Positions 1,315-21,336 of a stretch of DNA of 41,558 nt are shown here, in pieces (position 1 is the first letter of the stretch; every line of letters begins with the position of its first letter). Location: positions 1-41,558 of IMG/VR virus record IMGVR_UViG_3300036832_000918, one strand, 5' to 3'. Both the position numbers and the translations under genes were made by a program. Source of the DNA: a virus. The notes beneath the pieces were generated by a model. The model saw only the letters and a list, made by a program, of their open reading frames with translations, had not been told where the DNA came from and did no database searches.

Positions 1315-2519
1315 CATGGCGAGGCTGTGACCCTGCTATCGAGATCAGGTCGATCGACGACCTTCGTTCCTACATCCGCGGGCTCAGCTATTCCTGGCGT
1401 CCGTCGAATTTTGTCATCCACAACACGGCCAGCCCGACCTTGTACCAATGGTGGAACAGCGTCCCGCCAGCACAACGCATGGAGAACCTGCGCAGCTATT
1501 ATGAAAACGAGATGGGATGGAGCGCCGGCCCGCATTGTTTCATCGACGGCAAGAGCTGGTGGATTTTCACGCCGTTCAACGTCAAGGGCGTGCACTCGCC
1601 GAGCTGGAATGGGACGATGCTCGGCTTCGAATGTGTTGGCAACTACGACACCGAGAGCGACGAGACCGGCATGGGCGCCCAGGTCATGAAGATGGCGCAC
1701 GCGCTCTCGGGAGAGGTGTGCGCATATTTCGGCTGGGATCCGGGAAACTTGAAATTCCACAAGGAAGACCCGGCGACAGACCATGATTGTCCAGGCCGCA
1801 ACATGGTCAAAAGCGAGTTCATCGCGGACATCGAGCAATACATGGGCGACGGCGGGGAGGATCAAACGCCGCCATTGCAGGCATATCGCGGCGTCGTCAG
1901 CGGCTTGGCCAGCGGTGATCTGCTGAACATCAGGGCCTCGCCGTCCTCCCAGGCGTCAATCATCGGGGAGGCGGACAATGGCGATGAATTGACGATCGTC
2001 GGCGAGGCATGGAACGGCAGCACGCGGTGGCTGCGCGTTCAGTTTGGCCAGGCCGCGGGCGCGGGCGTGGCCATCTTTGGCTGGTGCTCGTCCCAGTATG
2101 TCACCTCGGACGAGCACCCCCCGGCAGATGCCTGGAGAAATGATATCACGGCGACGGTGTTCGGGAATGATGGCGACGATCAGGATTCCGCTTATCCGGA
2201 CATCGATTGGATCGACGACGACACCGAGGGCGTGAGCTTTCCCTATAAGTGGAAGGGCGATCGGCCCAGGATCGAGGTCACCGGTCCGGCAGGGTCCATT
2301 ACCTGTGGCGTGGTGGATGTGGGGCCTTGGAACACAAGTGACCCGAAGTACGTCCTTGATGGTGCCCGCCCCCTTGCCGAGAAGCAATATCAGCTCGGGC
2401 TGACGGCGCAGAACGGGAGGGTGCCGACCAATGATGCCGGGATAGACTTGACAGAGCCGATTGCCAATGCCGTTGGGGTCAGCGGCAAGGGCAAGGTGAA
2501 GTGGCGGTTCGTGCCGTGA
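1311..2519 (+). CDS. endolysin: N-acetylmuramoyl-L-alanine amidase with SH3 and RlpA-like barrel
   Basis: 402 residues, three parts. Residues about 30-175 form an Amidase_2/PGRP-type zinc amidase: H37 in VIHNTA, H150 in KFHKEDP and C160 in DHDCPGRN are the expected zinc ligands. This enzyme cuts the bond between muramic acid and the stem peptide to lyse the host. Residues about 187-263 look like a bacterial SH3 domain (LLNIRASPS, FGWCSSQYV) for wall binding. Residues about 275-402 resemble the double-psi beta-barrel of RlpA-like proteins (DSAYPDIDW, GVVDVGPWN, GAGIDLT-like VPTNDAGIDLTE). No signal peptide is present, so a holin is needed; the 33-residue protein upstream overlaps its start, and a second membrane protein overlaps its end. 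The three-domain build is longer than a minimal phage amidase. Confidence 0.9.
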   Translation: MTWRGCDPAIEIRSIDDLRSYIRGLSYSWRPSNFVIHNTASPTLYQWWNSVPPAQRMENLRSYYENEMGWSAGPHCFIDGKSWWIFTPFNVKGVHSPSWNGTMLGFECVGNYDTESDETGMGAQVMKMAHALSGEVCAYFGWDPGNLKFHKEDPATDHDCPGRNMVKSEFIADIEQYMGDGGEDQTPPLQAYRGVVSGLASGDLLNIRASPSSQASIIGEADNGDELTIVGEAWNGSTRWLRVQFGQAAGAGVAIFGWCSSQYVTSDEHPPADAWRNDITATVFGNDGDDQDSAYPDIDWIDDDTEGVSFPYKWKGDRPRIEVTGPAGSITCGVVDVGPWNTSDPKYVLDGARPLAEKQYQLGLTAQNGRVPTNDAGIDLTEPIANAVGVSGKGKVKWRFVP

Positions 2520-2803
2520 ACCCTGGCCCCCTCGAGGAAGCCGGCGCCACCGCGCGCGGCATTGTCGACGCGCTCAAGGCGCAGCCGGCGGTGCTGGCGC
2601 TGACACTGGCGAACATGGCGTTGCTGATCTTCATCTATTACGCGCTGCATTCCGGTGCGCAATTCCGCGAGAAGCTGGTCGATCAGGTGCTGGACAACTC
2701 CAATTCCATCCACGCCATGCTGCAGCAGCGCTCCGTCGCCTGTCCCGATCCAACCTTTCGCCTGCAGAGCGACGAGAGCAAGCCGGTTGAGCTGCCACCT
2801 TAG
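2516..2803 (+). CDS. single-span membrane protein of the lysis cassette (holin or spanin-like)
   Basis: A 95-residue protein if started at GTG 2516, which overlaps the endolysin stop (GTGA) and so looks coupled; an in-frame GTG at 2501 would add five residues. Residues about 30-48 form one membrane segment (AVLALTLANMALLIFIYYAL). The rest is a charged periplasmic or cytoplasmic tail with an amphipathic helix (FREKLVDQVLDNSN). Size, single span and place directly after an amidase fit an inner-membrane spanin or a class III holin. No lipoprotein partner was found in another frame. It is the last gene before attP. Confidence 0.65.
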   Translation: MNPGPLEEAGATARGIVDALKAQPAVLALTLANMALLIFIYYALHSGAQFREKLVDQVLDNSNSIHAMLQQRSVACPDPTFRLQSDESKPVELPP

Positions 2804-2823
2804 AGCGCCTCCATTCTGCTTTT

Positions 2824-2838
2824 TGGCACAGTTTCGGC
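2824..2838 (+). promoter_or_regulatory. candidate integrase arm-type site, left of attP core
   Basis: TGGCACAGTTTCGGC occurs here and again, identical and in the same orientation, at 3011-3025. The two copies flank the tRNA-like attP core. A partial third copy (CGGCACAG) follows at once at 2835-2842. Arm-type sites bound by the integrase N-terminal domain have this layout in lambda-like attP regions. Binding is inferred. Confidence 0.5.
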
Positions 2839-2914
2839 ACAGATACGTTCCGATGTTCTATTGTTGTTCGCCCTTCGTACACATGTTTTGAGGCGAAAAA
2901 TCGTTATATTTCAA

Positions 2915-2971
2915 TAGAGCGCCTTGTTTACACCGAGAGGGTCGGCGGTTCGAGTCCGTCACCGCCCACCA
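2915..2971 (+). other. attP: attP core: 3' half of a tRNA-Val(TAC) gene
   Basis: The stretch reads like a tRNA from the end of the D arm to CCA: TAGAGC, anticodon loop TTTACAC (anticodon TAC, valine), variable loop GGGTC, T arm GGCGG-TTCGAGT-CCGTC, acceptor strand ACCGCCC, discriminator A and encoded CCA. The 5' acceptor strand and D arm are absent upstream, so this is not a working gene. It is the piece that rebuilds the host tRNA after integration. One anticodon-stem pair (C27-A43) is mismatched, so exact identity with the host may begin only near the anticodon loop. The convergent integrase gene lies about 470 bases away. Confidence 0.85.
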
Positions 2972-2977
2972 ATAAAA

Positions 2978-3439
2978 TCAAACACTTAGTATGGTATCCT
3001 CCCCCAGAAGTGGCACAGTTTCGGCTTTGAATTGTTCTAAAGTGGCTATCCATTCGGTTATTTCACCTTCATTTCTGAACCACTCACCATTAGCTCGCAG
3101 AGCCGAGAACCTGTGATGCAACTCTAATTCATGCGCCCTGCTGCCATGAAAGACAGCGAGCACAACAGGCAATTCTGGCATCGACACCTTGAGGTACTTG
3201 AGGCGCGTCTTAATGCCGACGGAGGTGAATCCAATTTTCACGTATCGGCCCATTGCCACGACATAGATCAGACCAAGTAGATTGCGCCTTTTATCTTTGG
3301 TGTTGGCGATATGCTTCTGAAGAGCGAATTCCGGCTTAATGTCTTTATTTACGCGAATAAATCTCTTCGTATCTCGAATCACCCATGACTTGCGGGTGTC
3401 ATCGAAATAAAGCCGCGCTGGCTTTGCCGGTCTGCCCAT
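2978..3439 (-). CDS. GIY-YIG (T5orf172/MUG113-like) protein with integrase-type N-terminal domain
   Basis: 153 residues. The C-terminal two thirds match the T5orf172-like branch of the GIY-YIG nuclease fold: LLGLIYVVAMGRYVKIGFT (Tyr in the first strand, then VKIG), a conserved Arg (RLKYL), LELHHRFSALRANGEWF with the HxRF and GEWF motifs. The first 45 residues (PARLYFDD then SWVIRD, ending FALQKHIANTKD) match the start of the neighbouring integrase. The ATG abuts the integrase stop with no gap, so the two are co-transcribed. The gene is richer in A+T than the integrase, a sign of separate origin. It could be a homing-type nuclease or a DNA-binding accessory factor for recombination. Function is not known. 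Confidence 0.8.
   Translation of the reverse strand: MGRPAKPARLYFDDTRKSWVIRDTKRFIRVNKDIKPEFALQKHIANTKDKRRNLLGLIYVVAMGRYVKIGFTSVGIKTRLKYLKVSMPELPVVLAVFHGSRAHELELHHRFSALRANGEWFRNEGEITEWIATLEQFKAETVPLLGEDTILSV
3011..3025 (+). promoter_or_regulatory. candidate integrase arm-type site, right of attP core
   Basis: Second copy of TGGCACAGTTTCGGC, 40 bases to the right of the core. It lies inside the 3' end of the GIY-YIG gene on the other strand, so site and coding sequence overlap. See the left copy at 2824-2838. Confidence 0.5.
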
Positions 3440-4453
3440 CTATGTCCGCCGTGACTGATAGTCGGCCTGATGATGGCCATAGGTGCGCTCCAGGATTATT
3501 GCCGACATGCCGAGCTGCTGTGCGGCATCCCAAATATTGACGCCGTCGCGCATGAGCCAGGTGGCGCGGGTATGACGTAGGGTATGGGGCGTAACCTTGC
3601 CGTCGAGGCCGGCACGGCCGACTGCGGCCTGCCAAGAGCGGCGAAGCTTGATGACCCGGCCGCCATTGTAATGGCAGATGAACAGGGGGCGGATGAGTTC
3701 CGGCTCATTGCCAACGGACATGGCATCGATCCGCCACCAGCGGCGCACGTGAGCGAGGATGCCAGCTGCCAGCCGGATCGGCGGTGTGCGCTTGGTACTC
3801 TCGATGGCCCCAGGGGCCCGTCGCCTCATCAGGCCGGTGTCGAGGTCGATCCAGTCCCAGCGCGCGCCCAGGATCGCCCCGGCGCGGCTGCCGGTGTAGA
3901 GGCCGAGAAGGACGAACCGGCGCAGGTGCTCGACATCACGGGCAGCCCATAGCAGGCGTGCCGCCTCCTCGCGGGTCAGCCAGCGCTCCCGTGCCGCTGG
4001 CTTGTCCGGGAGCACCACGAACGGGATCGACGGCAAGGGACCGTATTCGCGATGCCAGTACCGGATCGCGGCCCGCAGCGTTTCCAGGTCGCGGCGGGCA
4101 GCCACCTGGGGCCGTTCGGCGGCATAGGCCCGGCAGGTCCTGGCCGTGACATCGGCGAGCCGTTTGTCGCCCCACCATCGCGCCAGGTTGCTGATGGTGT
4201 GAACGATCTTGCTTGCGGAGCGCTTATGCGGTACGTGTTCCCGGCTATAGGCTAGGAGGACATCGGCAATCGACGGCGTCGGAGTAGGGGCCGGACGGTA
4301 CTTGTTGCCGATGTACTTGGCGAGCGCCCCTTGAGCCCCTCCAACGTCGCTTTCAGGGCAGCCTGTGCGGCCGAAATACGTTCCGTCTCGGATAATCCAC
4401 TCGCGTCTGATGCGATCGAGGACGAGCCTCGCAGGGGACCGTTGACGCGGCAT
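3440..4453 (-). CDS. int: tyrosine recombinase / phage integrase
   Basis: 337 residues from ATG 4453, within the normal integrase size range. Starting further upstream in this frame would add low-complexity shadow sequence of the overlapping excisionase-like gene, so the long form is rejected. Residues 7-52 are a small N-terminal domain (PARLVLD, EWIIRDG, ALAKYIGNKY), likely arm-site binding; residues about 60-140 the core-binding SAM-like domain. The catalytic domain shows R190 (YTGSRAGAI), K221, H290 and R293 (TPHTLRHTRA) and nucleophile Y325 (ERTYGHH). The usual His/Trp position is M316 (QLGMSA), as in many rhizobial integrases of this type. It catalyses site-specific recombination between attP (2915-2971) and a host tRNA-Val gene. 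It is the penultimate gene of the leftward operon. Confidence 0.93.
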   Translation of the reverse strand: MPRQRSPARLVLDRIRREWIIRDGTYFGRTGCPESDVGGAQGALAKYIGNKYRPAPTPTPSIADVLLAYSREHVPHKRSASKIVHTISNLARWWGDKRLADVTARTCRAYAAERPQVAARRDLETLRAAIRYWHREYGPLPSIPFVVLPDKPAARERWLTREEAARLLWAARDVEHLRRFVLLGLYTGSRAGAILGARWDWIDLDTGLMRRRAPGAIESTKRTPPIRLAAGILAHVRRWWRIDAMSVGNEPELIRPLFICHYNGGRVIKLRRSWQAAVGRAGLDGKVTPHTLRHTRATWLMRDGVNIWDAAQQLGMSAIILERTYGHHQADYQSRRT

Positions 4454-4650
4454 TTCTGGACCATCTCGCGGATTTGCTGGGGGGTGGTGAAGAAGCGCCT
4501 GCCGATGCGGAACACTGTCAGGTTGCCACGGTCGATCTCCGAGCGCAGCGTGGCGACCTTGATCTGATTGCCGAACAGCAGGTCGCAGGCATCCTGGAGC
4601 GTCAGCAGGCGGTCGTCCGGGATATCCGGAGGAGATAATCCGGCGGTCAT
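4252..4650 (-). CDS. xis: excisionase-like DNA-binding protein
   Basis: 132 residues. Residues about 13-65 fit a MerR/excisionase-type winged helix: LTLQDACDLLFGNQIKVATL, then RGNLTVFRIGRRFFTT, then PQQIREMVQKCR. This is the common helix-turn-helix plus wing used to read DNA next to integrases. The last two thirds are polar (SETERISAAQAALKATLE) and overlap the integrase start by 202 bases in another frame. That overlap is large; the C-terminus keeps an amphipathic helix, so it may really be translated. The start lies 5 bases after the RecT stop. It probably directs excision or controls int expression; regulator instead of excisionase remains possible. Confidence 0.8.
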   Translation of the reverse strand: MTAGLSPPDIPDDRLLTLQDACDLLFGNQIKVATLRSEIDRGNLTVFRIGRRFFTTPQQIREMVQKCRVNGPLRGSSSIASDASGLSETERISAAQAALKATLEGLKGRSPSTSATSTVRPLLRRRRLPMSS

Positions 4651-4655
4651 GAAAA

Positions 4656-5936
4656 TCACTCCGCTCCGATTTGGCGTTCCCGCCGGGCGTACGCGTCGTC
4701 CAGTTCGGCCACATCCGGCGGGAACATCTTGGCGCGCACCGGCTCGACATAGGTCGCATATGCGGTCGCCAGCTCGTCCAACTCCTTCGCCGCGGCGAAT
4801 TTCGCCGTAACCCACCGGCAGAATGCCTCCGGATCCTCGTGGGATGGCTTGCCGTTGCCGTTCGCGGCGGCGGGCGTTTCGAGTGCTCTGACACGCGTAA
4901 GGGCAAAGTCTTTGAGCGACTTTCGTTCGTCCAGTGTCAAGCCGACACGATTGCGCTCTGCTATCTCTTGCGGATCACTCATCCAAGTTCTGATCCACTG
5001 TGGCTCGGTGGCGATGCGGATTTTATCGCGCGAAACCGCCATGTACTGGAGTGCAGCGGAACGGTCGGCTGGCGGCTGCGCCTTGGGCGGCTGAGCGTTT
5101 ATCGAAGTCTCGATGATGACGCCGTCCGCGTCGTGCGGAGGATCGACAAAAGAAGGCGGCGTTTTCCGGCCTTTGGCCCAGAACCTTTCCTTCGCCCGTT
5201 CCATTTCCTCCTCGGTCGCAGGACCGGGGCGCGCTCGCGCCGCATCGATCATGCCTTGACCGGCGCGTTCGGCCCACGCATCGTGGGCGTGCTCGGACGC
5301 CGCGGCGCGCTCCTCGGGGTCTTCGATGGCGGCGATATCGGCGTTGCGGGCGACGGCGGTGGCGGCCTGCTGCATTTCCTCGGCGCTGTAGAGGCCGGAT
5401 AATTCCTGAGGAAACGCCTTCCTGATCGCCAGGCTCTCGGCGCACTTGGCGATCATCACGTCGCCCATGGTCGACCACATGCGGGTAGGAAAGCCTTCCT
5501 TGCTGCGCTGAGCGTAGCTATCGAAGCGCGCGACGCCCCAGCACGGCTCTTTGAAATCGCTTCGCAGCACGCCGACCTTGGCGGCCGCCGGCGACTCGGC
5601 TGCAAGCCAGACATCACACCATTGTCCATCTTGGCCACACCAGTATGGCCCGACTTGTCCGGCGTATTTGCCGGTGCGCTCGGCGATGAGACGGAGGCCA
5701 TCGATCGAGGTCTGTATTGCCATGACCTCGCGGCGTTCTTTGCTGTCCCAGCGCTTCACGGCATAGATTTGCCGGGCAAGCGGATCGAGGCCGGTGCGTT
5801 CGGCCTGATGCATGAACAGGCGAAGCTCGTCGTCGCTTGCCCCACGAGCAATCGTTCTTTTTATCAGATCGACTTGATCAGGACTGAAGCGGCTGGGCGC
5901 CGTGATCGTCTGCCGGACCGTAACTTGCGTGTTCAT
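4656..5936 (-). CDS. bet: RecT/Bet family single-strand annealing protein
   Basis: 426 residues. The N-terminal 200 match phage recombinase Bet/Rec[81 protein letters not shown] and [14 protein letters not shown], the signature of the family. These rings anneal complementary single strands during phage recombination and replication. The C-terminal 200 residues are a hydrophilic extension with several helices, longer than lambda Beta (about 260). The start at 5936 has AAGGAA 8 bases upstream. No partner 5'-3' exonuclease (lambda Exo, YqaJ, RecE) is visible nearby. It is in the leftward operon before xis and int. Confidence 0.9.
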
Positions 5937-14174: not shown

Positions 14175-15629
14175 ATGCTTGACCGTGCCGTCTGGCAGGC
14201 CCAGCCGGGCCCGCAGACCGCGCTGATCACCTGCCCCATATTCGAAGCGTTTTACGGCGGGGCGAGGGGAGGCGGAAAAACGGATGGGGTATTGGGCGAT
14301 TTCATCCGGCACGCCGACAACTACGGCGCCGATGCCATCGGCGTCATGTTCCGCCGCGAGCGGACGCAACTCATGGAGGCGATCGAGAGATCGCGCGCCA
14401 TGTTCGGGCCGCTCGGGTGCATATTTCATGAGCAAGACAAGGTCTGGCGGTTTCCCAACGGCGCGCGCCTGCGCTTTGCCTACTTGGAGCGCGACGCCGA
14501 CGCCGAGGCCTGGCAGGGTGGATCGTTCACACGGGTCTACATTGAGGAGATCGGCACTTTCCCGAATGAGGGGCCGGTCATCAAGCTAATGGCGACGCTG
14601 CGATCGGGCGCTGGCGTCCCCGTCGGCTTTCGAGCAACGGGCAATCCCGGCGGTTCTGGACATTTGTGGGTGAAGCGGCGATACATCGACCCAGCGCCGA
14701 ATGGTTGGCGCATTGTTGTCGATCCCGATACCCGGCTGGAGCGCATCTATATACCGAGCCGAGTAACAGACAATGCATATCTCGGCCCGGACTACATTCA
14801 GCGGCTTCGCGCGTCCGGATCGGTCGAGCTGGTGCGCGCCTGGCTGGAGGGCGACTGGAATGCGATCGAAGGTGCGTTTTTCCATGAGTGGTCGGCGAAG
14901 AATATCATCGAGCCATTCCGTATCCCTGACGACTGGATACGGTTCCGATCGGGCGACTGGGGCTCCGCATCGCCATTCTCGATCGGATGGTGGGCGGTCG
15001 TGCAGGATGATCATACGGCTCCCGGCGGCGCCGTGCTACCCCGAGGCGCACTAGTCCGCTATCGGGAGTGGTACGGCGCCGATAACCCTGCGGCTGGAGG
15101 GAAGGGGCTCAAGTTGACGGCAGAGCAGGTGGGCGATGGCATTGTTAAGCGCGAAAAAGGTGATCCCAAGCTTGCCTATGGAGTCATGGACCCGTCGGCG
15201 TTCAAGGAAGACGGCGGGCCGAGCATCATGGAGCGATTGAATGGGCGGCTTATCGCAAACGGATGTTGTGCTTTCCGTCCTGCAGATAATACAAGAGTTG
15301 CCGCCAGCGGCAGCACCGACCGCCGCGGGCCGATGTCTGGCTGGGATGCTATGCGTGCTCGTATTCGTGGGACTGGTAATCGTCCTATGGCATACTGGTT
15401 CGATACGTGCGTTGCTTCGATCCGCACGATCCCAGTGCTCCAGCACGACCCCAACAAAGCCGAAGATTTAGATACCGAAAGCGAGGACCATGCGGCCGAC
15501 TGCGCACGGTACGCCTGCAGCTCCCGACCTTGGCGCCGGTTCATAGCGCCGCCCGACCCGGCAAAGGACGCCTATCGCGTGCCAGGGGACGACATGGACG
15601 GCGTGGCCAGCAGCGTGAAATTACTATGA
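14175..15629 (+). CDS. terL: terminase large subunit
   Basis: 484 residues, the expected size. ATPase part: Walker A at residues 28-37 (GGARGGGKTD), Walker B with catalytic Glu at 121-125 (VYIEE), coupling motif near GNPGG (156-160). Nuclease part (RNase H fold): acidic D261 (RSGDWGSAS), D339 (YGVMDPSAF) and D438/D442 (EDHAADCARY). It cuts concatemeric DNA and pumps it into the procapsid through the portal. The ATP-binding and nuclease motifs are intact. The portal here is P22-like, so headful packaging is likely. The next gene overlaps its stop. Confidence 0.93.
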   Translation: MLDRAVWQAQPGPQTALITCPIFEAFYGGARGGGKTDGVLGDFIRHADNYGADAIGVMFRRERTQLMEAIERSRAMFGPLGCIFHEQDKVWRFPNGARLRFAYLERDADAEAWQGGSFTRVYIEEIGTFPNEGPVIKLMATLRSGAGVPVGFRATGNPGGSGHLWVKRRYIDPAPNGWRIVVDPDTRLERIYIPSRVTDNAYLGPDYIQRLRASGSVELVRAWLEGDWNAIEGAFFHEWSAKNIIEPFRIPDDWIRFRSGDWGSASPFSIGWWAVVQDDHTAPGGAVLPRGALVRYREWYGADNPAAGGKGLKLTAEQVGDGIVKREKGDPKLAYGVMDPSAFKEDGGPSIMERLNGRLIANGCCAFRPADNTRVAASGSTDRRGPMSGWDAMRARIRGTGNRPMAYWFDTCVASIRTIPVLQHDPNKAEDLDTESEDHAADCARYACSSRPWRRFIAPPDPAKDAYRVPGDDMDGVASSVKLL

Positions 15630-15826
15630 CCAATTTGGTCATCGACTATCCAGGCGGGCAAGTCGAGGCGCCCGATGATCTCGTGGCTCTTTTTGATGCC
15701 GCTCCGAAGATAAAAACGGGAGGGGTGGCAGGATTTCCCAGCAAGAGAACGCGTGAAGGGCGCGCCTATTATAAGAAGGCGGCAGAGATCGAGGCCGCAG
15801 GCGGCGAGGTTGGCATACTGCTATGA
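15626..15826 (+). CDS. small hypothetical protein
   Basis: 66 residues; ATGA overlap with terL. MTNLVIDYPGGQVEAPDDLV then ALFDAAPKIKTGGVAGFPSK, ending in a basic helix (REGRAYYKKAAEIEAAGGEV). Overlaps at both ends indicate coupled translation. Not recognised. Confidence 0.6.
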   Translation: MTNLVIDYPGGQVEAPDDLVALFDAAPKIKTGGVAGFPSKRTREGRAYYKKAAEIEAAGGEVGILL

Positions 15827-15996
15827 GAGCACCAGAGGAACAACCGCACCTGTGCTTGCACTGCCGCGGGCCGATCATCGGTCGCTACGCCCTGGCAAAG
15901 TATTGCTGCAGTGATTGCCGGCAGAAGGTCAACAATGCCAAATGGGTCAAGACGATACATGACAGGCGAAGACAACCGCAAGAGCAAGCGCGATAA
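15823..15996 (+). CDS. 57-residue zinc-finger-like protein
   Basis: MRAPEEQPHLCLHCRGPIIG followed by RYALAKYCCSDCRQKVNNAK and a basic tail. CLHC and CCSDC form a clear CxxC...CxxC zinc ribbon. The start overlaps the previous stop, and the end overlaps the next gene by 62 bases in another frame. Probably binds nucleic acid. Confidence 0.65.
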   Translation: MRAPEEQPHLCLHCRGPIIGRYALAKYCCSDCRQKVNNAKWVKTIHDRRRQPQEQAR

Positions 15997-16345
15997 GCTC
16001 GTCGATAAGTTGCTGGCCTCGCAGGCCGGCGCCGTCGCCGTCACCCAGGACGATATTCCTCCTGGGATGAACGTGTTCGCCACCATGGAGGCCGCTTGGA
16101 AATCGCTGGCCGAAATGTCGTTTGCGGACCGCCTGACGCCGAAGCAGCTCCAGGACGCCAAGTTCATCTTTTTCCATGGCGTGCAGGCGGCGTCGAATTT
16201 GATGATCTACTGCGCCGGGCAACACAAGTTCGAGGCCGCCGCCGATCAGATCATCAAGGACTGCGTCGAGTACCAGAAAGAGGCGATGCAGGTGCTGCAG
16301 GCGCGCAAGCTGGAGCCGGTGATCAACGGGGCGGATCGCGGCTAG
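15935..16345 (+). CDS. hypothetical protein after terminase
   Basis: 136 residues from ATG 15935 (AGAAGG at good distance); ATG 15959 in frame is the alternative. Helical throughout: KSKRDKLVDKLLASQAGAVA, FADRLTPKQLQDAKFIFFHG, AADQIIKDCVEYQKEAMQVL. No family recognised. Its stop is followed by 70 bases with a TGACC-TGCG-GGTCA inverted repeat (16350-16363) before the BRO gene. Confidence 0.65.
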   Translation: MPNGSRRYMTGEDNRKSKRDKLVDKLLASQAGAVAVTQDDIPPGMNVFATMEAAWKSLAEMSFADRLTPKQLQDAKFIFFHGVQAASNLMIYCAGQHKFEAAADQIIKDCVEYQKEAMQVLQARKLEPVINGADRG

Positions 16346-16415
16346 CGTCTGACCTGCGGGTCAATTCCTGAAGAATTTAGCCAATTATCACATCGCTACA
16401 TCGTGGGGAGGCAAC

Positions 16416-17252
16416 ATGTTGCCTGTCACCAGGCGTTTTTTCTTTGAGACCCAGGAAGTCCGCATCACTGACCGCAACGGTGAGCCATGGTGGGTACTCG
16501 TCGATGTGTGTGGGGTGCTAGAGATTGGAAATTCCTCCGATGTTGCAAGGCGCTTAGATGAAGATGAAAAGGGGGTCGATACTATCGACACCCTTGGCGG
16601 CCCCCAGGGCCTCGTGATTATCAACGAGCCCGGCCTCTACAAGCTGATCGCCACCAGCCGGAAGCCGGAGGCCAAGCGCTTCGATCGGTGGGTCAGGCAC
16701 GAGGTGCTTCCGACCATCCGCCGGACGGGCGTTTATGGGGTTCCGGCCGCGGCCGAAAAATCGGAAATGGCTCAACTCACCGAAATGTTTGTTTCTGGCA
16801 TGAAGGAAGCTATCGCCCCTTTGGGCCTTCGCCTAAGCGAATTCGACCAACGCTTCGCAGGACAAGATGAAGCTCTTGAAAGGGTTGAAACTCGCGTAAC
16901 ATGTTTGGCGGAAGATGTAACTTTCATCAAGAAACAAATAGTTGGGCGCGGCCGTTGTTTGAATTTGGAAACAAAAGCAGAGCATGTTGACGCGATAAGA
17001 GTTATGGGCGGAACATGTCCATGCTGCGGCATCGCAGAAATCATTGAGAATACCCGGAAATCTAAGTTTTCAGATTATGATCATTTCTATCAGAACAGTT
17101 ATCCAAATGCAGATCATACATGGCTGATTTGTAAGCCTTGTCATAGCGACTTGACCTACGGTCGTCGCCCACGCGATGAAGTAGAGCCGATGTTTAAATC
17201 ATATCAAGCACGTCGGCGCCGACTTCCAGGCCGACAGGCATTGCTTCTCTAG
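16416..17252 (+). CDS. BRO-N antirepressor-like protein fused to HNH nuclease
   Basis: 278 residues, GGGGAGG directly before ATG 16416. Residues 1-108 are a BRO-N domain (FETQEVRITDRNGEPWWVLV, DVCGVLEIGNSSDVARRLDE, INEPGLYKLIATSRKPEAKR, WVRHEVLPTIRRTG), the fold used by many phage antirepressors. Residues about 115-180 form a coiled coil. Residues about 198-262 resemble an HNH nuclease: CPCCG, SDYDHFYQNSYPNADHTW, CKPCH and DLTYGRR. The DNA shifts to higher A+T in the nuclease half, which suggests fusion by transfer. It might induce lytic growth by blocking the repressor, or act as a mobile nuclease with a BRO DNA-binding head. Confidence 0.8.
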   Translation: MLPVTRRFFFETQEVRITDRNGEPWWVLVDVCGVLEIGNSSDVARRLDEDEKGVDTIDTLGGPQGLVIINEPGLYKLIATSRKPEAKRFDRWVRHEVLPTIRRTGVYGVPAAAEKSEMAQLTEMFVSGMKEAIAPLGLRLSEFDQRFAGQDEALERVETRVTCLAEDVTFIKKQIVGRGRCLNLETKAEHVDAIRVMGGTCPCCGIAEIIENTRKSKFSDYDHFYQNSYPNADHTWLICKPCHSDLTYGRRPRDEVEPMFKSYQARRRRLPGRQALLL

Positions 17253-17268
17253 AAGAAGGATGGCAACG

Positions 17269-17445
17269 ATGGAGAGCTTTGCTCAGAGGCTTTATCTTTT
17301 TCTAGGAATTTCCATCAGCAGCCGTATGTTGTGGAACATACCTAGTTTTGCCGTTAGGCGGCTACCTGAGCCAGAAACGGGCGAGGATATTTTTGATGAT
17401 GCTATCTCTGGCCTATCTTTAGTTCAATATGAACGACAGCGCTGA
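17269..17445 (+). CDS. possible small protein
   Basis: 58 residues from ATG 17269 with AAGGA eight bases upstream (ATG 17260 is too close to it). MESFAQRLYLFLGISISSRM then LWNIPSFAVRRLPEPETGED, partly hydrophobic. No family. It continues the A+T-rich patch of the nuclease before it. Confidence 0.4.
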   Translation: MESFAQRLYLFLGISISSRMLWNIPSFAVRRLPEPETGEDIFDDAISGLSLVQYERQR

Positions 17446-17472
17446 GATCATGGATGAGGACGAAGACGTATC

Positions 17473-17688
17473 ATGATCGGCACCATCATCGGCCTGATCC
17501 TCCTGGTCATTGTGCTTGGCGTGGTTTATTGGGCCATCCAGCAACTGCTGCCGCTCATCCCGCTCGCCGAGCCGTTCCGCACCATCCTGCGCGTGCTGCT
17601 CGTCGTCCTCGTCGCCGTCATCGCAATCTGGTTCATCATCGTGCTGCTCGGCATGGCCGGCGTTCACGTTCCCACGTTCCACGCCTGA
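17473..17688 (+). CDS. two-span small membrane protein
   Basis: 71 residues with two hydrophobic segments (MIGTIIGLILLVIVLGVVYW and ILRVLLVVLVAVIAIWFIIV) joined by a Pro-rich turn (LLPLIPLAEPF). It matches a family of small alphaproteobacterial membrane proteins and has the topology of a class II holin. It is far from the endolysin, however, so the holin role is uncertain. Confidence 0.7.
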   Translation: MIGTIIGLILLVIVLGVVYWAIQQLLPLIPLAEPFRTILRVLLVVLVAVIAIWFIIVLLGMAGVHVPTFHA

Positions 17689-17697
17689 GGATGCAAG

Positions 17698-18000
17698 ATG
17701 ACAACCGAGACATATGATGATGACTTCCCGGTCAGCGAGCTGGGGCTGTCAGTGCGGTCGAAAAAACGATTAGAGAGAGATTATAGAACCGTTGGCGAAG
17801 TGCGCGCGGCCTCGGATTGGGAGTTGCTGAGAGACTCCAACTTCGGCCGTGTTTCTCTCAATGAGGTGAGAGAACTGCTTGGAACCAGCGCCAATCCAGC
17901 CCCGATCGACGCGGGTTGCATTAGAGACCGCGATGAATGGAGGATCAAGGAAAGGGATAGAAAATACAATTCGCCTTGGTACGAATTCTGTCTGTCATGA
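17698..18000 (+). CDS. RNA polymerase alpha-CTD-like protein
   Basis: 100 residues. Residues about 11-62 match the alpha subunit C-terminal domain: SELGLSVRSKKRLERDYRTV then GEVRAASDWELLRDSNFGRV and SLNEVRELLG (host alpha reads LSVRS.NCL...TIGEL...ELL...NxGRKSLNEI). Of the DNA-contact positions of E. coli alpha, R265 (R20), N294 (N48), G296 (G50), S299 (S53) and E302 (E56) are kept; N268, C269 and K298 are K23, R24 and V52. There is no alpha N-terminal domain. The fold is helix-hairpin-helix-like, so DNA or sigma contact is plausible. It may act as a decoy or adapter for host polymerase. Stop overlaps next ATG. Confidence 0.75.
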   Translation: MTTETYDDDFPVSELGLSVRSKKRLERDYRTVGEVRAASDWELLRDSNFGRVSLNEVRELLGTSANPAPIDAGCIRDRDEWRIKERDRKYNSPWYEFCLS

Positions 18001-18197
18001 TCACCGGCGCGAGAGCGGACACGACCCAAATTGGCCTCGCCAAAAATGCCGATGGCGTCGCATTCCGCTGCGGCACGTGCGAATACTTCGACCGCGGCAT
18101 ATGCCACAACCCCAACCCAAAGCTCGACAGGCGCGAGGTCGGGGCCTACTGGTGCTGCAACCTCTATGACCACAAAGGCATGAAGGTGATCGTGTGA
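17997..18197 (+). CDS. small cysteine-rich protein
   Basis: 66 residues; ATGA overlap at the start and GTGA at the end. FRCGTCEYFDRGICHNPNPK then VGAYWCCNLYDHKGMKVIV gives CxxC, C and CC, a metal-binding set reminiscent of high-potential iron-sulfur or zinc proteins. Its role in a phage is unclear. Confidence 0.7.
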   Translation: MITGARADTTQIGLAKNADGVAFRCGTCEYFDRGICHNPNPKLDRREVGAYWCCNLYDHKGMKVIV

Positions 18198-18421
18198 GCG
18201 ACGACGCTTCCCAGCAGATCATGCGCCAGGTCGACGGCATGACACCGCCGATGCGGGCGCTCGTTTACGAGTACGGATTTTCGATCGTCTACAGCATGCG
18301 CCAGGAAGGCTACACCAGCGCCAAGGCGCTGCGCCCGATCCTCGAAACATGGCGCCAGCGCCGGCAACAGGAATTGCTCGATGCTCGGAATAACGGAACC
18401 GATCGATCCAGACTGGGATGA
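18194..18421 (+). CDS. small helical protein
   Basis: 75 residues from GTG 18194 (GTGA overlap). MSDDASQQIMRQVDGMTPPM then RALVYEYGFSIVYSMRQEGY and a basic helix (WRQRRQQELLDARNNG). Its end overlaps the next gene by 41 bases. Not recognised. Confidence 0.6.
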   Translation: MSDDASQQIMRQVDGMTPPMRALVYEYGFSIVYSMRQEGYTSAKALRPILETWRQRRQQELLDARNNGTDRSRLG

Positions 18422-18938
18422 TGATCCCGTCTGCTACAGGCTACATTTTGAGACACACGATAGTATCGGCGGTTATGAGATCGATGACTGCTCCATCAGC
18501 GGAAAGCTTCCATTTCCACGCGTATCATTAAAAACTGAAGTAAAGACGGAAGTTGAACTCGATTCGCTGCGATCAATCCATGATGATCAAATCAGTGCGG
18601 CGGAAGCCGAACAAAAGAGATATTTGCGATCCTTAGAGAATGAAAAGAAATATCGCTTTCTCCAAGCGGCAAATGAACAAGGTCTGCATTCAAAAGAAGA
18701 TTATATTCAATGGGTTCATGATTTTCTTAGCCGACAAGACCACGAAGGCGCTATTCAAACATGGATAAATTCGTCTGGCCCAAGATTTGATCAAAAAATG
18801 TTCGGGCTCACCAGTGAGGAAATTGCCAATCTATATAATTTTGCTGCGGAGCTGCGGGATAGTTTCATAACCCAACGCCAACCTCTCCACTTTTGGAGAG
18901 ATGAGCATCCGCTGCCGAAGCCATCGGCACCAGCCTAA
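18381..18938 (+). CDS. hypothetical protein, likely moron
   Basis: 185 residues. Beta-rich start (PVCYRLHFETHDSIGGYEID), long charged coiled coil (LRSIHDDQISAAEAEQKRYL) and helical end. More A+T than flanking structural genes. The last codons (PLPKPSAPA) lie in one copy of a 24-bp direct repeat that recurs at 19138. No family recognised. Confidence 0.65.
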   Translation: MLGITEPIDPDWDDDPVCYRLHFETHDSIGGYEIDDCSISGKLPFPRVSLKTEVKTEVELDSLRSIHDDQISAAEAEQKRYLRSLENEKKYRFLQAANEQGLHSKEDYIQWVHDFLSRQDHEGAIQTWINSSGPRFDQKMFGLTSEEIANLYNFAAELRDSFITQRQPLHFWRDEHPLPKPSAPA

Positions 18939-18941
18939 GGT
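18918..18941. repeat. 24-bp direct repeat, left copy
   Basis: Identical to 19138-19161 (begins AAGCCATCGGCACC). The two copies lie 220 bases apart and bracket a small A+T-rich gene, the mark of an insertion or duplication by short-homology recombination. Confidence 0.85.
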
Positions 18942-18973
18942 GTGCTTGGAAATACTAGAGAAAGTATAGAGCT

Positions 18974-19165
18974 ATGTCTAAGGATACAGTTTCAGTATCT
19001 GGTATTCACCTGTGGCGAGATGAGAATCATGTATATGTTTGTGCTGAAATGGATGGACGTTGGGTGACAGTTATAACAGACGTATGGGATAGCCCGTTTA
19101 GTCATATAGTAGAACCTAGTGGTATGCGACGCTGTGCAAGCCATCGGCACCAGCCTAAGGTATAA
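18974..19165 (+). CDS. 63-residue moron-like protein
   Basis: MSKDTVSVSGIHLWRDENHV followed by YVCAEMDGRWVTVITDVWDS is a small beta-strand protein. Its last codons (SHRHQPKV) are supplied by the right copy of the 24-bp repeat, so the 3' end was made by the event that created the repeat. A+T-rich. Function unknown. Confidence 0.55.
   Translation: MSKDTVSVSGIHLWRDENHVYVCAEMDGRWVTVITDVWDSPFSHIVEPSGMRRCASHRHQPKV
19138..19161. repeat. 24-bp direct repeat, right copy
   Basis: Second copy of the repeat at 18918-18941. It is read here in a different frame from the left copy. Confidence 0.85.
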
Positions 19166-19230
19166 ATGTGGACCCAGAAGAGCCATCAAGCGCCCATGAC
19201 GGCATCCTAAAGCCAGAGTAATCCGCTAAA

Positions 19231-21336
19231 ATGCCATCTGCATTCCAACTGCCAGTGGGCCCGCTGGCGCCCTCCCGCATGGGCATGCGCACGACCAAGG
19301 ATCGCCCGCCCATGGCGCGCCGCTCCGAGATCGCGCCTGACAACAGCGACTGGGACGGCGACGAGCAGGGCTACCTGCCGGTGTCCCGCCTGCGCGAGAA
19401 ATACATCGGCTATCTCACCGTGAAGGTGCAGGAATATGAAGAGCAAAAACTCTCCCGCCACTACTACCACGGCAGCCAGTGGACGCCCGAGGAAATCAGG
19501 ATTTTACGGAACAGACGGCAACCTATCATCACATTCAATGAAGTATCTCCAAAAATTGACAATCTGGTATGGATCGCTCAGCGGTTCCGGGCAGACCCTA
19601 AAGCCTACCCACGAACCCCAACGCATGCTTCAGGTGCCGAGGTTGCCACTGAATGCGTGCGGGCCGTGCTGGACGGATGCGAGTGGTCACACCTTGATGC
19701 TTACTGTGCTGGCCAGGCGGCCACGGAAGGAATTGCCGGAATAGAGATCAAGCTGATCGAGGGCGACCACGGCGACCCTGATATCAGCGCGGACTTCATC
19801 TTCGGGGATGATTTCTTCTATGACCCGACATCATTCAAGCCGGATTTCAGCGATGCGCGATACAAGGGGATCAGCAAGTGGCTGCATGAGGAGGCCGCCA
19901 TCGAGCTGTTCCCCGACAAAGAGGATGAGCTGCGATCGCTGATGGTGGAAACTGGCTTCGACCTGACAACTCATGCTGATCGTGAGTTCAAATGGGTATA
20001 TGCGAATGAACACAGGGTTAGACTGGTAGAACACTGGTATAAGAATCGCGGCAAATGGTTCTGGGCATTCTATGTCAGCAACCTGCTACTTGATCAGGGC
20101 GTTTCACCCTTTTTTGATGAGCGCAGGCGCTCTACAGATCGCTTCGTTATGTTCAGCGCTGCTGTGGATCACGATGGTGATCGGTACGGCTTTGTACGAA
20201 ATTTCAAAGGGCCGCAGGATGAAGTGAACCAGCGGCGCTCCAAGGCGCTCTACATCAGCAGCACGTCACGGCTGACGATCGAAAAAGGCGCTGTGGATGA
20301 CGTCGAGACGGCACGGCGCGAAAGCGCCCGGCCCGATGGCGTGATCGAGTTTAACAAAGGCTTCGAGCCGCCGGCCCCGGCGCCAAAGGACGAAGACCTG
20401 CAGGCGCACCTCGCACTGATGCAGGATGCCCGGGCCAAGATCACCGGGTTCGCCAACATCATGCCGGACCGCGTCACCGCGGCCGAGCAGGGCGAGCACT
20501 CGGGCGTCGCCATCGATCGCCTGCAAAAGGCCGCGTCGGCCGATCTGGGCACGTTCCTGCGCAATTACAAATCATGGAAGCTACGTGTCTATCGCGCAGT
20601 GTGGTCGGCGATCCGGCATAACTGGACGGCGGAGCGCTATATCCGGGTGAATTCCGGCGACCAGGAGATCACGCAGTTCCTGCAGATCAACGCGCTCGGC
20701 CTCAACCAATGGGGCCAGCCGGTGATCGAGAACATGGTCGGCTCCATCGATGTCGACATCATCATGGACGAGGGCCCGGACACCGCGAACCTGATGCAGG
20801 ACGCCTATGAACTGATCAAGGACGATCCGACCATCCCGTGGCAGGTGAAATTGGACTTCATGCCGCTGCCGGCGTCGTTCAAGGCGCAACTGCAGCAGAA
20901 GCTCGCCCAGCAGGCGCAGCAGCCCGATCCCAAGATGCAGGTCGAGCAGCTCAAGGCGCAGACCGCGCAGCAGAAGAGCCAGGTCGACATGGCGACGGCG
21001 CAGCACAAGGCCGCCGCCGACCAGCAGAAGGCCACGATCGACCTTCAGGCCAAGCACACGCAGGCCCAGGCCGAGATCGCCAACGCCCAGCAGGACGCGC
21101 TCGCCCGGCAGCAGGACGCCCAGCGGGCCCGCGAGCAGCACGCCGCCGACATGCAGCTGGAAATGGCCAGGTTGCAGGCCGAGCGGCAGAAGCTAATGCT
21201 GGAAATGGAGCAGGCGCGGCAGGAGCATCTGTTCAAGATGCGCGAGCTGCAGGAGCAGCACATCACCACCATGGCCGAGCATGCCGCCAAGCGTAAAGAG
21301 GCTGCGGCGCGGCCAAAGGCAAAGGCCGAGGCATGA
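19231..21336 (+). CDS. portal protein, P22-like
   Basis: 701 residues, close to P22 gp1 (725). Core features: RRQPIITFNEVSPKIDNLVW, AVLDGCEWSHLDAYCAGQAA, GISKWLHEEAA, FVMFSAAVDHDGDRYGFVRN, GPQDEVNQRRSKALYISS and MPDRVTAAEQGEHSGVAIDR, the pattern of P22-type portals. The final 150 residues are a long Gln/Ala-rich coiled coil (QLKAQTAQQKSQVDMATAQH), like the helical barrel that senses packed DNA in P22. Twelve copies form the ring for DNA entry and exit. Start at 19231 is uncertain: ATG 19279 and 19312 are in frame and none has a good ribosome site. Confidence 0.9.
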   Translation: MPSAFQLPVGPLAPSRMGMRTTKDRPPMARRSEIAPDNSDWDGDEQGYLPVSRLREKYIGYLTVKVQEYEEQKLSRHYYHGSQWTPEEIRILRNRRQPIITFNEVSPKIDNLVWIAQRFRADPKAYPRTPTHASGAEVATECVRAVLDGCEWSHLDAYCAGQAATEGIAGIEIKLIEGDHGDPDISADFIFGDDFFYDPTSFKPDFSDARYKGISKWLHEEAAIELFPDKEDELRSLMVETGFDLTTHADREFKWVYANEHRVRLVEHWYKNRGKWFWAFYVSNLLLDQGVSPFFDERRRSTDRFVMFSAAVDHDGDRYGFVRNFKGPQDEVNQRRSKALYISSTSRLTIEKGAVDDVETARRESARPDGVIEFNKGFEPPAPAPKDEDLQAHLALMQDARAKITGFANIMPDRVTAAEQGEHSGVAIDRLQKAASADLGTFLRNYKSWKLRVYRAVWSAIRHNWTAERYIRVNSGDQEITQFLQINALGLNQWGQPVIENMVGSIDVDIIMDEGPDTANLMQDAYELIKDDPTIPWQVKLDFMPLPASFKAQLQQKLAQQAQQPDPKMQVEQLKAQTAQQKSQVDMATAQHKAAADQQKATIDLQAKHTQAQAEIANAQQDALARQQDAQRAREQHAADMQLEMARLQAERQKLMLEMEQARQEHLFKMRELQEQHITTMAEHAAKRKEAAARPKAKAEA

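Follow-up and report, generated by a model that had tools for sequence, protein, structure and literature searches.

The window analyzed here, a stretch of 41,558 nucleotides that makes up IMG/VR virus record IMGVR_UViG_3300036832_000918, carries a small gene for what, judged from its sequence, is a free-standing phage copy of the C-terminal domain of the RNA polymerase (RNAP) alpha subunit (alpha-CTD), given that it is a phage gene in which the alpha-CTD is present, the N-terminal domain (alpha-NTD) is absent and the equivalent of R265 is kept. The gene occupies positions 17698 to 18000 of the plus strand, from an ATG start to a stop codon ending at 18000, exactly as originally predicted, and its product is a protein of 100 amino acids (MTTETYDDDFPVSELGLSVRSKKRLERDYRTVGEVRAASDWELLRDSNFGRVSLNEVRELLGTSANPAPIDAGCIRDRDEWRIKERDRKYNSPWYEFCLS). 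The alpha-CTD profile PF03118 matched residues 8 to 61 with 37.8 bits and an E value of 1.6e-9 in Pfam, where the gathering cut-off is 23.8 bits, and neither a helix-hairpin-helix (HhH) family (HHH_5 and similar) nor any other Pfam family was found for this protein at E values up to 10. The domain proper (approximately residues 8 to 61) lies at 17719 to 17880, and residues 63 to 100 form a C-terminal extension (17884 to 17997) that ends in SPWYEFCLS and is predicted, with low confidence, to be helical. The NCBIfam rpoA models matched the same stretch as PF03118, solely via their C-terminal part, and the 100-residue protein contains no alpha-NTD, the domain responsible for dimerisation and assembly with beta and beta-prime.

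Comparison with known structures gave the same picture. The matches listed by phmmer against the PDB are RNAP alpha subunits throughout, and the list is headed by the Caulobacter alpha-CTD (9zum; E value of 4e-6). An AF2 model was obtained with an alignment of viral alpha-CTD relatives as input, and is thus partly dependent on sequence evidence; in it the core (approximately residues 11 to 60) has a pLDDT around or above 90, and the tail is poorly predicted. Superposition of this core on the PDB placed an alpha-CTD first (7vpd_S; Z of 10.1 and rmsd of 1.4 over 55 residues), with the top unrelated HhH proteins, Dmc1/RAD51, at a Z of 7.7 or lower. The Pfam result and this structural ranking both favor the alpha-CTD, and an unrelated HhH look-alike was therefore ruled out. 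The claim that the protein copies the alpha-CTD without the assembly domain is thereby upheld: the open reading frame (ORF) is an actual gene, and its product is truly homologous to the alpha-CTD. No real match for the protein was found in PHROGs, PADLOC reported nothing for the window, and profile P0001 had no match in the phages collection.

The gene is part of a tight, translationally coupled set on the plus strand. A Shine-Dalgarno-like GAGG (17687 to 17690), located 7 nucleotides 5' of the ATG, overlaps the stop codon of the preceding gene (17473 to 17688), which encodes a hydrophobic, putative membrane protein of 71 residues that is 96% identical to its counterpart in the related locus L012. 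The TGA of the alpha-CTD gene shares bases with the ATG of its downstream neighbor (ATGA, 17997 to 18000), which encodes a Cys-rich protein of 66 residues (CGTCEYF..CHNPNP..CC; 17997 to 18197), and the stop codon of this neighbor in turn overlaps the GTG start of the gene after it (18194 to 18421; 75 residues, phrog_13882, unknown function).

The phage origin of the gene, also part of the original prediction, is supported by its surroundings. The 41.6-kb virus contig contains genes for an integrase, RecT, a repressor, an antiterminator, terminase, portal and the major head protein, a content from which the carrier is judged to be a temperate, podovirus-like phage; bacterial contamination was rejected for the window, as this is a full phage gene set in a phage record. 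The region that holds the alpha-CTD gene is bordered on the left by the terminase large subunit (14175 to 15629) and on the right by the portal protein (19231 to 21336), and contains a BRO-N/Ant-type antirepressor (16416 to 17252), all on the plus strand. Two small proteins of unknown function encoded between terminase and portal (15911 to 16345 and the phrog_13882 protein) are kept in most close relatives. A promoter and terminator scan of positions 15500 to 19300 gave counts no higher than in shuffles, and a scan of the window for UP-like patterns gave 4 matches at 3 mismatches (overlapping sites) versus 1 in the control, a difference that carries no information. Expression of the gene would probably be late.

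Relatives were collected via portal and terminase. Locus L012 carries an 83%-identical alpha-CTD copy in the same slot, and in L016 this slot, again flanked by the membrane-protein and Cys-rich genes, is filled by an unrelated ORF of 66 residues (826 to 1026), which points to an exchangeable cargo site. PF03118 matches were found in 4 of the 50 related records, many of which are fragments, and 2 of these matches were above the cut-off. Since a minority of relatives carry PF03118 and the content of the slot varies, the alpha-CTD gene is considered, from these comparisons, to be optional accessory cargo between terminase and portal. Further alpha-CTD ORFs are located just 5' of the terminase genes in L040 and L042, an alpha-CTD half-domain is present in L108, and a cousin of 67 residues directly follows the terminase in L079. 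The latter keeps R265, N268, C269, G296, K298, S299 and E302, scores 21.9 bits with PF03118 (below the cut-off) and has a predicted fold that is a near-tie between the alpha-CTD (Z of 6.7) and the RAD51 HhH (Z of 6.3), so that its kinship rests on the residues, the PF03118 score and a tail, PW(Y/F)EFCL, common to this protein, the window protein and the L012 copy. Further scans with profiles P0002 and P0003 gave no additional orthologues. In a tree of 62 domains, built from few columns, the window/L012 pair joins L214 with support of 94/90, just short of the support mark of the tool.

Comparison of the window gene with its L012 orthologue gave dN of 0.10 and dS of 0.30 (NG86). The purifying selection seen in this comparison, with an orthologue 83% identical, argues that the ORF did not arise by chance, and together with the PF03118 E value, the orthologue itself and the operon overlaps led us to drop the chance-ORF reading. 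The dN/dS ratio is approximately 0.33 to 0.5 across three methods, versus 0.06 to 0.16 for the neighboring genes (NG86), which indicates that, as far as substitution patterns tell, selection on the alpha-CTD gene is purifying and fairly loose, looser than on its neighbors. This elevated ratio, together with a third-position GC below that of the flanking small genes, the replaceable slot and the minority of close relatives with a PF03118 match, is what would be expected of a functionless fragment of host rpoA that was captured and is drifting. Such decay is, however, very improbable, given that the ORF has stayed open and under purifying selection since the split from L012, that its ribosome-binding site and coupled overlaps are present and that R265 is invariant across phages.

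The residues by which the alpha-CTD reads DNA are in part retained. In the numbering of the Escherichia coli subunit, R265, N294, G296, S299 and E302 are kept as R20, N48, G50, S53 and E56, and the basic character of K291 is retained as R45; N268, C269 and K298 are replaced by K23, R24 and V52. The classic DNA-binding set (R265, N268, C269, G296, K298, S299 and E302) is therefore incomplete, with 4 of 7 positions kept, and the residues named at the outset as retained and as altered were identified correctly. In the E. coli rrnBP1 complex R265 and N294 insert their side chains into the minor groove, and backbone contacts are made by K291 and K298 (PMC7822876). By comparison with this complex, the core reading pair R265/N294 is intact in the window protein, and one backbone contact, that of K298, is lost. 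Genomes of Planctomycetota and Lentisphaeria also encode alpha-CTD repeats with valine at position 298, so that V298 need not mean that function is lost. In loci L005 and L007 to L011 (Planctomycetota and SZUA MAGs), a single stretch holds two alpha-CTD repeats separated by approximately 100 bases, of which the second has NFGRVSLNE, with Val at 298 as in the window protein.

The changes at 268, 269 and 298, and the maintenance of the PW(Y/F)EFCL tail even where the domain has diverged, raise the alternative that the protein acts mainly through protein contacts and not through DNA, as a decoy or adapter that binds RNAP-associated partners (sigma region 4 or activators of the host) or a dedicated partner via the tail. 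We regard this as rather unlikely, because R265 and N294 are retained and because E261, which belongs to the determinant for contact with sigma, is replaced by Gly in the window copy (it is Glu in the L012 orthologue). Because of this Gly, bridging to sigma appears to be the weakest of the three functions that had been suggested for this protein, the others being competition at UP elements and an adapter role directing the polymerase. The protein is also acidic (pI 5.0), for which reason its free DNA binding may be weak. The sequence changes at K298 and E261 and this low pI caution against assuming strong binding of DNA or of sigma by the window copy.

The original prediction implied that the protein was singular. 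Its homology stood, and the singularity did not: many phages have free-standing alpha-CTDs, a few of them annotated. A scan of IMG/VR with a profile built on alpha-CTDs and the motif N[FL]G[RPK][VK]SL[NKT]E gave 131 viral loci, 80 of which were returned. The ORFs examined among these 80 encode 84 to 306 residues (a few are clipped by contig ends) and carry an alpha-CTD with no space for an alpha-NTD. PF03118 matched all 52 diverse representatives, among which the window family and two phages with names are counted. Ruegeria phage V16 and Bacillus phage Goe8 (annotated as "RNA polymerase subunit alpha") are named examples of the class. The R265 position, which lies outside the search motif, is invariant in 52 of 52; G296, S299 and E302 are favored by that motif, so their conservation among the representatives is less informative. 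Acinetobacter MD-2021a and Salmonella "phage" records were not used, as their alpha matches resemble bacterial contigs with rpoA. Two plasmid records also came to light. A 16.5-kb plasmid of Yoonia sp. BS5-3 (L152; NZ_CP150953.1) carries a complete extra rpoA-like ORF of 389 residues (15259 to 16428) that has no gene entry in the PLSDB table, and a 395-kb "plasmid" of Sphingomonas parapaucimobilis (L154; NZ_CP155752.1) carries rpsM-rpsK-rpoA-rplQ (2248 to 4935) and is perhaps a mislabelled piece of chromosome or a chromid.

In the open-licence PMC literature, no functional study of phage alpha-CTD proteins was found, and they appear there as annotation only. BFVD names Mycobacterium phage Mithril for an alpha-CTD. 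In an Erythrobacter phage paper an ORF of this kind is listed as a component of an RNA polymerase (PMC9127768), a reading that finds no support in the phage proteins examined here, from which the alpha-NTD is absent. The Goe8 protein (210 residues) resembles the window protein in being a phage gene product with an alpha-CTD, no alpha-NTD and no known function found. The annotated genes of Goe8, Mithril and L02, the last two compared by name only, differ from it in size and phage, the window protein being a bare domain with a tail.

In some members of the class the alpha-CTD is joined to a second domain. Sigma70_r4 scored above the cut-off in three alpha-CTD proteins, and other members matched HTH_17, HTH_23 or Mor-like families, mostly weakly. 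The three proteins, which combine sigma-70 region 4 and an alpha-CTD in one chain above the Pfam cut-off, are encoded in L180 (4482 to 5189), L211 (4629 to 5291) and L215 (3384 to 3887). In L169 (4515 to 5207), flanked by RecT and exonuclease genes, a helix-turn-helix (HTH) recognized by eye and an alpha-CTD are present in one chain. The fusions of L180, L211, L215 and L188 have in common with the window protein an alpha-CTD without alpha-NTD and with R265 kept, and differ from it in their HTH or sigma-4 part, which the window protein lacks. Sigma-70 region 4 and the alpha-CTD contact one another at promoters in nature. The repeated joining of phage alpha-CTDs to sigma region 4 or HTH domains points to transcription or to promoter-like DNA.

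The genomic neighborhoods count against a role in transcription. Several phage alpha-CTD genes adjoin genes of recombination and replication (RecT, exonuclease or DNA polymerase) and not obvious transcription genes, and the alpha-CTD ORFs of L040, L042 and L079 adjoin terminase genes. This is in line with a generic HhH accessory: a small minor-groove module recycled from the alpha-CTD fold for phage packaging, replication or recombination, and playing no part in transcription. We nevertheless consider this unlikely, since the features retained are specific to the alpha-CTD and not general to HhH proteins and since fusions to a sigma-4 domain exist.

Our preferred reading, put forward tentatively and with doubts that may well outweigh it, is that the window protein, whose gene the phage carries as accessory cargo, modulates transcription by competing with the host RNAP alpha-CTD. 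The gene would yield an untethered two-HhH minor-groove module, made without the alpha-NTD that anchors the alpha-CTD to the polymerase. This module would take sites of the host alpha-CTD, namely A/T-rich minor grooves 5' of promoters, and might also take sigma region 4 or activators. Such competition would move transcription off host promoters that depend on the alpha-CTD, or tune phage promoters. Relative to the RpoA alpha-CTD, the protein has the same profile, predicted fold, equivalents of R265, N294, G296, S299 and E302 and basic residue at 291; it differs in lacking the alpha-NTD and linker, in the changes at N268, C269, K298 and E261, in having one residue fewer from helix 1 to helix 2, and in its extra C-terminal tail of 38 residues, which may have a role of its own.

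Host alpha is a target of other phage proteins. The Rac protein of phiKMV-like phages cleaves alpha. Phage T4 modifies R265 of host alpha by ADP-ribosylation, lowering its DNA binding (PMC2988020), which makes the R265 DNA contact a known phage target. These strategies bear, as would that of the window protein, on host alpha or alpha-CTD function; the T4 protein alters and Rac cuts the host subunit, whereas the window protein is itself homologous to the targeted domain.

The alpha-CTD is a hub for the action of UP elements and class I activators on bacterial RNAP. It is conceivable, though we would not count on it, that free alpha-CTDs form a widespread and unstudied class of phage transcription regulators, phages of many kinds having acquired the RNAP domain that reads upstream DNA, with R265 kept and the tether dropped. 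Coupled to HTH or sigma-4 domains, coiled coils or tails, these copies would outcompete the host polymerase or redirect it, and the window protein would be a member of minimal form that has a tail peptide of its own. The class, known so far as scattered phage annotations and to which the window gene adds a member, is of greater interest as a whole than this gene alone. If phages routinely make a free alpha-CTD, they would have in it an easy and general means of overriding the promoter choice of the host, and the free domain would be a natural dominant-negative tool against alpha-CTD function.
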